The notes beneath the pieces are model-generated. The model worked only from the letters and a program-made list of their open reading frames with translations, was not told where the DNA came from and made no database searches. From positions 1 to 64,000 of the forward strand of contig CAIVGL010000078.1 of NCBI GenBank assembly GCA_903905505.1: a stretch of DNA of 64,000 bases, written 5' to 3'. This DNA comes from an uncultured Bacteroidia bacterium. Lineage in GTDB: Bacteria; Bacteroidota; Bacteroidia; Bacteroidales; Prolixibacteraceae. Of the stretch, positions 32,921 through 34,071 are shown in pieces. Made by a program: the position numbers and the translations under genes. Within the stretch, counting starts at the first letter, position 1; every line of letters starts with the position of its first letter.

Positions 32921-32951
32921 TTTGGCACGAGTCGTTTTTTTCATACTTTTG
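32921..32951 (+). promoter_or_regulatory. Bacteroidota-type promoter for the SRP RNA gene
   Basis: TTTG (32921-32924), 19-nt spacer, TACTTTTG (32944-32951); SRP RNA begins a few nt downstream. Confidence 0.7.
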
Positions 32952-32955
32952 CGGC

Positions 32956-33053
32956 GGGTAAGTCCTGCACGATCAGCTCCTATTGAACTCCCCCAGGGCC
33001 GGAAGGCAGCAAGGGTAGATGGTTGTAGCGGTGCGATGTAGGTAGCTTACCCA
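32956..33053 (+). ncRNA. ffs: Signal recognition particle RNA, small bacterial type (4.5S)
   Basis: Conserved apical motif AGGGCCGGAAGGCAGCAAGGGTA; closing stem GGGTAAG...CTTACCC. Confidence 0.93.
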
Positions 33054-33056
33054 CTT

Positions 33057-33130
33057 GCCGGATTAGCTCAGTTGGCCAGAGCACGTGATTTGTAATCTCG
33101 GGGTCGTCAGTTCGAATCTGACATTCGGCT
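33057..33130 (+). tRNA. tRNA-Thr (anticodon TGT)
   Basis: GCCGGATTAGCTCAGTTGGCCAGAGCACGTGATTTGTAATCTCGGGGTCGTCAGTTCGAATCTGACATTCGGCT; loop TTTGTAA. Confidence 0.93.
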
Positions 33131-33180
33131 CATCAAGTTCTTACCATTTAAAAGGGAAATTATTACTCTTAAGAATTAAA

Positions 33181-33218
33181 TGAAATGCCAATCCGATTAA
33201 AATCAGATTGGCATTTCA
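33181..33218 (+). terminator. Hairpin between tRNA-Thr and tRNA-Gly (terminator-like)
   Basis: TGAAATGCCAATCcGAT-TAAA-ATCaGATTGGCATTTCA, long stem with one mismatch. Confidence 0.75.
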
Positions 33219-33256: not shown

Positions 33257-33329
33257 GCGGGAGTAGCTCAGTTGATAGAGCATTAGCCTTCCAAGCTGAG
33301 GGTCGCGGGTTTGAGTCCCGTCTCCCGCT
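33257..33329 (+). tRNA. tRNA-Gly (anticodon TCC), identical to the copy at 14626-14698
   Basis: Base-for-base reverse complement match to the first copy over the whole tRNA. Confidence 0.95.
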
Positions 33330-33953
33330 CTAGTATAGTCCGGGGGCGACTTCAGTCGCCCCCGGACTATTTATCTGAAGCCCAAACTCCTCAATTCTTT
33401 CTCTGTTAATTAACTTTAGATTTCTGATGGCCATGATATCTAAATAGGAAGAAAACTCCCAATCCTCGACTCTTTTAACCAATTTCGCTCTTAAGGGATT
33501 AGAAAGTATATAATTAAAACAAACATTGGGATATTCGGAACTGAATTGAGCTGCTCCAGTATTTGTTTTACAACTGAACGATATTCCCTTTGATTCACTG
33601 AGAATAATAGCTTTGGTTCCATTGCGAAAAAGCGAACCTGTCCAATTTTCTTGCTTATTAATTGCCCTTGTATATGAGGCAAGCATAATACCAATCGATT
33701 TATTGAACGTCACATTAGTCCGAGTACAACTTTGAGTTGCTCTCGGACTAACAACAAGCCCAACACAGTTTACATAAACCATCAAATGAAAATGATTCGG
33801 CATTAAACACCAAGCTAATATATCAGCATAGGGTAAAACATGCACTCGAATTTTCCGAATAAAATACAGGTAATTTTCACGTTTCAGGAAAATTGGCTGA
33901 CGATTATTGCCCTGATTATAAATATGATATAAATGCCCTGGTTCAAATTGCAT
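33330..33953 (-). CDS. REP-associated tyrosine transposase (RAYT; IS200-like Y1 transposase)
   Basis: MQFEPGHLYHIYNQGNNRQPIFLKRENYLYFIRKI...AWCLMPNHFHLMVYV (HUH motif), ASYTRAINKQENWTGSLF; start trimmed to the internal ATG. Confidence 0.9.
   Translation of the reverse strand: MQFEPGHLYHIYNQGNNRQPIFLKRENYLYFIRKIRVHVLPYADILAWCLMPNHFHLMVYVNCVGLVVSPRATQSCTRTNVTFNKSIGIMLASYTRAINKQENWTGSLFRNGTKAIILSESKGISFSCKTNTGAAQFSSEYPNVCFNYILSNPLRAKLVKRVEDWEFSSYLDIMAIRNLKLINRERIEEFGLQINSPGATEVAPGLY
33335..33370. repeat. REP-like palindrome a (3' end of the RAYT CDS)
   Basis: ATAGTCCGGGGGCGACT-TC-AGTCGCCCCCGGACTAT, perfect 17-bp stem. Confidence 0.9.
33715..33751. repeat. REP-like palindrome b (inside the RAYT CDS)
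   Basis: TTAGTCCGAGTACAACT-TTG-AGTTGCTCTCGGACTAA, 10 + 5 bp stems with a 2-nt mismatch. Confidence 0.85.
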
Positions 33954-33984
33954 ATCAATTCGTATTAAGGTCCAAGTCACGCTT

Positions 33985-34018
33985 TAGTCCAAGTCCGACT
34001 CTAGTCGGCCTCGGACTT
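33985..34018. repeat. REP-like palindrome c (5' flank of RAYT), with a degenerate half copy at about 34023-34037
   Basis: TAGTCCAAGTCCGACTCTAGTCGGCCTCGGACTT; same TAGTCC...CGACT..AGTCG...GGACT architecture as palindrome a. Confidence 0.8.
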
Positions 34019-34071
34019 TAAATCGGCCTCCGACTATAATGTACGAAAAATAAGCGAGAATTAGAAGCTGT

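Follow-up and report, generated by a model that had tools for sequence, protein, structure and literature searches.

The RAYT gene and its palindromes

The window, by which we mean the whole 64,000-nucleotide stretch of DNA analyzed here, carries an intact open reading frame for a RAYT (TnpA_REP) protein on its minus strand, together with several palindromes (Table 1). The listed start, GTG 33980, is doubtful because homologues begin at the methionine of an MQFE sequence (33953), and that ATG is probably the true start. The protein contains the motif HFH (residues 54 to 56), Tyr148, a Y---NP motif with Asn152 and Pro153, and a WEFSS tail. In our alignment (A1), the HUH motif, single tyrosine, N152, and P153 that mark class 2 Y1 HUH enzymes were invariant or nearly so, and S168 and S169 of the serine tail were invariant.

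Table 1. Coding sequence and palindromic features of the RAYT locus in the window
Feature	Position	Strand	Description
RAYT/TnpA_REP CDS	33330..33953	minus	207 aa; ATG 33953, TAG stop 33330-33332; profile, motif, and fold evidence
Internal REP-like hairpin	33715..33751 (33-nt core, 33717-33749)	minus	TTAGTCCGAGAGCAACT-CAA-AGTTGTACTCGGACTAA; 15/17 pairs; codons 69-79, SPRATQSCTRT
3' REP-like hairpin	33335..33370	minus	Perfect stem, 17/17 pairs; codes for C-terminal NSPGATEVAPGLY (residues 195-207)
Upstream REP-like hairpin	33985..34018	minus	13/15 pairs; 2-nt loop
Second upstream palindrome	34003..34035	minus	33 nt; overlaps the first via one common 15-nt arm

A Pfam search with the protein gave no match. 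The NCBIfam profile REP_Tyr_transpos matched with 52.3 bits (E value, 5.4e-14), short of its curated cut-off of 80, which is a database threshold rather than a biological definition. We therefore treat the gene as a divergent RAYT whose assignment is carried by fold and motifs. The AlphaFold2 model (mean pLDDT, 87) had as its top PDB match 4er8, the E. coli RAYT with a REP hairpin (E value, 1.8e-7), followed by ISDra2 and IS608 TnpA, which places it in the RAYT/IS200 transposase fold. The multiple near-identical mobile copies of IS200/IS605-type elements were not seen, as the window genome holds a single RAYT gene. Orthologue L005 lies at the same position, beside a tRNA-Gly gene, and RAYT genes of this kind are under purifying selection (dN/dS, 0.09 to 0.38). 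By motifs and modeled fold, then, the window gene is a RAYT of class 2 Y1 HUH, in agreement with the first-pass annotation, while binding and cleavage of single-stranded DNA hairpins are only predicted.

The three related minus-strand palindromes described in that annotation, lying upstream of the gene, inside it, and across its 3' end, were all found where it had placed them, and the two in-frame peptides were as it had read them. The window contains three occurrences of the pattern AGTCCG-N14-24-CGGACT, where 0.01 would be expected (0 of 100 shuffles reached three), and a genome-wide count, made by sequence patterns only, returned these three sites and no others. When the window gene was randomly recoded with synonymous codons, the score of the internal hairpin was reached in 1 of 3,000 trials and that of the 3' hairpin in none of 3,000. 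The internal hairpin codes for a loop between predicted beta strands 65-68 and 79-82; it is less perfect in this gene, and its similarity to its own flanks is only 0.77 to 0.80. The upstream hairpin falls under our stricter cut-off and was detected only at a looser one. Just upstream of it lies an extra 15-nt arm, AGTCGGAGGCCGATT (34021-34035), and the site as a whole consists of three 15-nt arms in a run, giving two overlapping palindromes. The same three-arm layout is present upstream of L005.

We considered whether the 3' palindrome supplies a functional C terminus and rejected this, as the palindrome of most relatives either contains the stop codon or follows it; read-through into the palindrome is therefore a local matter. 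This hairpin ends 5 nt short of the tRNA-Gly gene (33257-33330), the end of which is touched by the RAYT stop codon. A small SRP RNA of the Bacteroidales type (32949-33056) adjoins tRNA-Thr (33057-33131) without a gap, with tRNA-Gly next. A strong 18-bp palindrome (TGAAATGCCAATC...), located at 33181-33218 beyond tRNA-Gly and present in a longer version in L005, is possibly a terminator. The 15-nt arms are themselves nearly self-complementary, with a mean of 5.2 of 7 pairs across 25 arm types, chosen by hand and in many cases related to each other, compared to 1.9 in shuffled arms (maximum, 2.64). The 33-nt unit can thus be viewed as a palindrome made up of palindromes, two 15-nt ones in tandem, which could form either a single long hairpin or a pair of short hairpins.

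Relation to known RAYT subclasses

In-frame REPs within tnpA_REP, between the HuH and Y motifs, were reported by Quentin et al. in 2018 (PMC6006769), and the basic phenomenon is therefore already known. The accessible text of that paper calls them unique to subclass 2.4 (Bertels group 4), which has GT[AG]G-tagged REPs, the motif YIxNNP, no serine tail, and an insert that is highly variable in both length and sequence. It describes subclass 2.6 (Bertels group 5) as mostly from Bacteroidetes, with a serine tail and atypical flanking hairpins that lack GT[AG]G, and reports, in that same text, no REP within subclass 2.6 genes.

The window gene resembles subclass 2.4 in having a REP between HuH and Y, but its family has a WEFSS tail and mostly 33-nt hairpins that keep one phase and track their own flanks, and is nearly devoid of GT[AG]G at the hairpin foot (11 matches in 271 distinct family hairpins, both strands considered). 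As in subclass 2.6, the host is a member of Bacteroidetes, NHxH and the SS tail motif are present, the flanking hairpins lack GT[AG]G, and copies occur at other sites in the genome; the internal REP sets the gene apart from what the accessible text records for that subclass. The Y motif is YILSNP in the window gene and YIHxNP in most relatives; the published 2.6 motif is YIH[QN]NP. Judged on motif descriptions, the gene looks closer to subclass 2.6 than to 2.4 by its tail and absent GT[AG]G.

Two further systems are worth comparing. E. coli TnpA_REP (4er8), the best structural match, also combines HUH with a single tyrosine and has hairpin substrates with an internal mismatch, but E. coli REPs, which carry GTAG, occur in large numbers and outside genes, and sequence identity in the structural alignment is ~15%. 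Rickettsia palindromic elements (Ogata 2000/2002, via PMC10969869) are likewise palindromic mobile DNA that contributes an in-frame peptide to genes. These elements, however, are described as ~150 bp long and as entering unrelated genes, whereas here the host gene encodes the very enzyme for which the hairpin is the expected substrate. In the literature searched, we did not find an internal REP in a 2.6-like RAYT or the slot, flank, and constraint properties that follow. What is new here is the fixity of slot and phase, the match to own flanks, constraint at the DNA level, in-frame loop inversions, and loss of the hairpin in the closest orthologue.

A fixed slot and codon phase in relatives

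Relatives were pooled from 140 family-level genomes, 397 phylum-level genomes, and GTDB contigs. From 200 loci, we retained 173 distinct genes in which the slot, defined as the segment that runs from the HUH strand to helix C, was readable, and we counted as strong any hairpin with a score of at least 10. Named relatives belong to Bacteroidales and their neighbours, such as Sunxiuqinia, Maribellus, Paludibacter, and Prolixibacteraceae; a search of viral contigs gave one match. A strong slot hairpin was present in 86 of the 173 relatives. Slots held 94 hairpins in 17.8 kb (5.3 per kb), compared to 18 in 88 kb of other coding sequence (0.2 per kb). The codon phases of these 94 hairpins, measured from hairpin centres, were distributed 85/7/2, and the commonest layout was 15 + 3 + 15 nt, or 11 codons. 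Slots varied in copy number, from zero to several units, and in length. In L078, L074, and L077, the slot holds several peptide repeats of palindrome origin in tandem (DTDGFTL, SEAVSK; SEQVT-SHQLT), extending to as many as 76 codons. At another locus (L137, G085:C425), CRISPR-associated-looking open reading frames lie next to a related RAYT that has internal palindromes.

In a tree built without the slot (FastTree), one clade with support of 100 had 128 members, of which 83 carried the hairpin and 45 were without it. Only 2 of 38 rows outside that clade had one, both in a deep separate group, and the 28 nearest outgroup rows had none. The tree was midpoint rooted and has many weak inner branches, so its 31 label changes are not divisible into gains and losses. 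Because the hairpin occupies the same slot across so much of the clade, nearly always in one codon phase, the simplest reading of these sequences is a single ancestral acquisition followed by many losses, possibly with regains. The first-pass annotation had proposed that a REP invaded its own transposase gene. The element is indeed a REP-type hairpin, in frame and related to its own flanks; its spread and single phase across the clade speak against a recent or lineage-specific event. Dozens of relatives have a hairpin at this place, conserved as DNA and matched to their own flanks (see below), and this points to a working binding site rather more than to random insertion.

Constraint at the DNA level

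Random synonymous recoding of the hairpin-bearing slots of relatives left the hairpin standing in only 11 of 1,720 trials. Where two genes carried a hairpin at the same place, synonymous change in codons for the same residue was seen at 30 of 314 positions inside the hairpin (10%) and at 2,572 of 7,087 outside it (36%), a comparison in which the pairs share ancestry and their selection favours conserved hairpins. Three pairs (L012/L035, L147/L148, and L030/L042) had identical internal 33-mers at 69 to 78% coding sequence identity, with synonymous changes in 0 of 11 codons inside and in 40 to 52% of same-residue codons outside. Thus, some internal hairpins stayed unchanged though synonymous divergence in the rest of the gene was large or saturated. 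Where internal hairpins differed from their own flanks, there were 49 cases in which both members of a pair had changed and 21 in which one had, a compensatory pattern. In both internal and flanking hairpins, non-Watson-Crick pairs concentrated at pair 9. These comparisons show the internal hairpin to be maintained, at the sequence level, as a feature of the DNA.

The coding-strand mismatches also bear on the level at which the hairpin acts. An RNA hairpin is expected to favor G.U, and the observed numbers (21 G.T and 28 A.C) reveal no such bias, which is evidence against an mRNA hairpin. Regulation of the message, the other possibility raised in the first-pass annotation, found no support.

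Match to flanking hairpins and copies elsewhere

Internal hairpins resembled the flanks of their own gene, with a similarity of 0.85 compared to 0.54 after permutation in 46 representatives (<75% identity) and of 0.83 compared to 0.53 in 20 representatives; none of 20,000 permutations reached the observed value in either set. Simple homogenization by the flanks is insufficient to account for this, as position-specific differences persist; L010 to L012 and L035, for example, have AGTGAG inside and ACTCAG outside. In genome G125, the internal 33-mer differs from its own flanks and is the sole copy within one mismatch in the genome, and is the same as that of G019 and G020; local copying therefore fails to explain the identity there. 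In G019 and G020, both hairpin types are dispersed, with ~24 to 27 copies in all, and many genomes of relatives have dispersed copies of the internal type.

The window genome (G000) has three clusters (C2:24-256, C26:1063-1339, and C56:36046-36199; L129 to L131) that together contain seven related palindromes of 33 nt. These have no RAYT nearby and are of a sequence type unlike that of the RAYT's own hairpins, which makes for a small dispersed REP population. The gene accordingly has the attributes of a RAYT in being single copy, with hairpins on both sides and related palindromes elsewhere in the genome. For the two checks put forward in the first-pass annotation, comparison with the closest homologues and a genome scan for further copies, the outcome was mixed. 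The segment in the nearest relative (75% identity) is one codon shorter, with a decayed palindrome, and the scan returned no more of the exact sequence, only the related palindromes of these other clusters.

Turnover and loss of the internal hairpin

Between genes that are 90 to 96% identical, some hairpin loops were inverted to their exact reverse complement with the arms unchanged or nearly so, both internally (L010 versus L011/L012; L023/L027) and upstream (L011 versus L012/L015/L017). As the loop is 3 nt long, inversion leaves the frame intact, and a resulting change of Gln to Leu was tolerated. Exact inversion between intact arms indicates that the hairpin sites are actively reworked. In L005, L008, L015, and L017, the internal hairpin has decayed and the reading frame remains open; L005, which kept its frame and lost the hairpin, is the closest orthologue of the window gene. 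Given this decay and the many clade members without the hairpin, the element is, by comparison of these genes, dispensable over some time.

Interpretation of the internal hairpin

The reading we favor, at a probability of roughly 0.55, is that the internal hairpin is an ancient in-frame REP, maintained by selection as a DNA hairpin cognate to the gene's own RAYT, and that it has sometimes been lost. The locus itself is best read as a REPtron, with a single-copy RAYT, cognate-looking hairpins on both flanks, and one inside the gene. A REP unit would have entered the RAYT gene in an ancestor of the Bacteroidales clade, at a tolerant loop that joins the HUH beta strand to helix C and in a phase that adds 11 codons and no stop. 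It may have been retained mainly since its own RAYT recognizes the hairpin as single-stranded DNA, with internal and flanking hairpins following the specificity of the enzyme together, and occasional loss would account for cases such as the sister lineage of the window. Its likeliest role would be that of a third binding or cleavage site, in single-stranded processing of the element or in self-control, rather than that of an mRNA structure or a peptide determinant.

The main alternative, which we find possible but rather unlikely, holds that REPs insert or duplicate in the slot because a loop there does no harm. Copying from flanks or dispersed REPs (through gene conversion, template switching, or RAYT activity) would refresh them before they decay, and the internal hairpin would have no function. 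The variable number and length of units would fit such tolerated selfish insertion, as would in part the decayed copies in open frames, along with the exact loop inversions between intact arms (internally in L010 and L023/L027, upstream in L011) and the dispersed copies in relatives, a possible source for repeated copying; PMC6006769 likewise raises the possibility that the protein is little affected by REPs in such loops. Harder to reconcile with it are a single codon phase in 85 of 94 hairpins and internal hairpins that stay identical over saturated synonymous divergence and are unlike both flanks. G125 and the three identical pairs argue against it as the whole story. An artefact could be suspected in a draft genome of 129 contigs, but the arrangement recurs in dozens of independent genomes, named isolates such as Sunxiuqinia dokdonensis included, and three matches where 0.01 are expected speak against chance; recurrence had already refuted both, and we give them next to no weight.

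Selection on the transcript or the peptide might also have produced a palindrome. A hairpin that slows translation, alters mRNA stability, or lets the RAYT repress its own message would sit where this one does, in the transcript of its own enzyme, and REP hairpins could down-regulate RAYT expression (PMC3733652). We nonetheless consider this improbable, in view of the missing G.U bias, the freely inverting loops, and the flanking copies that share the architecture and even the mismatch position of the internal one. It seems more improbable still that selection acted on the peptide, for instance on a specificity loop of the protein, and yielded the palindrome as a side effect. The 11 codons do form the tip of a beta hairpin in the AlphaFold2 model, and the fixed phase yields recurring patterns such as S--VT-S---T, but recoding for the same amino acids abolishes the hairpin, synonymous sites within it are conserved, and the protein tolerates the Gln-to-Leu swap.

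With the hairpin thus read as a cognate DNA site that was kept by selection, we tentatively propose, as something these sequences make plausible rather than probable, that it is a working site that acts on the DNA of the gene, in self-control or as a third processing site, and that enzyme specificity, flanks, and in-gene hairpin evolve as a unit. A clean test of function is possible because synonymous changes alone can break and restore pairing. The finding bears on how RAYTs recognize hairpins and on whether they still act on cellular DNA. Each such family member has a likely substrate within its gene, and the dozens of sequence types amount to natural enzyme-substrate pairs, so that recognition and coevolution become directly testable in a RAYT family with in-gene hairpins.
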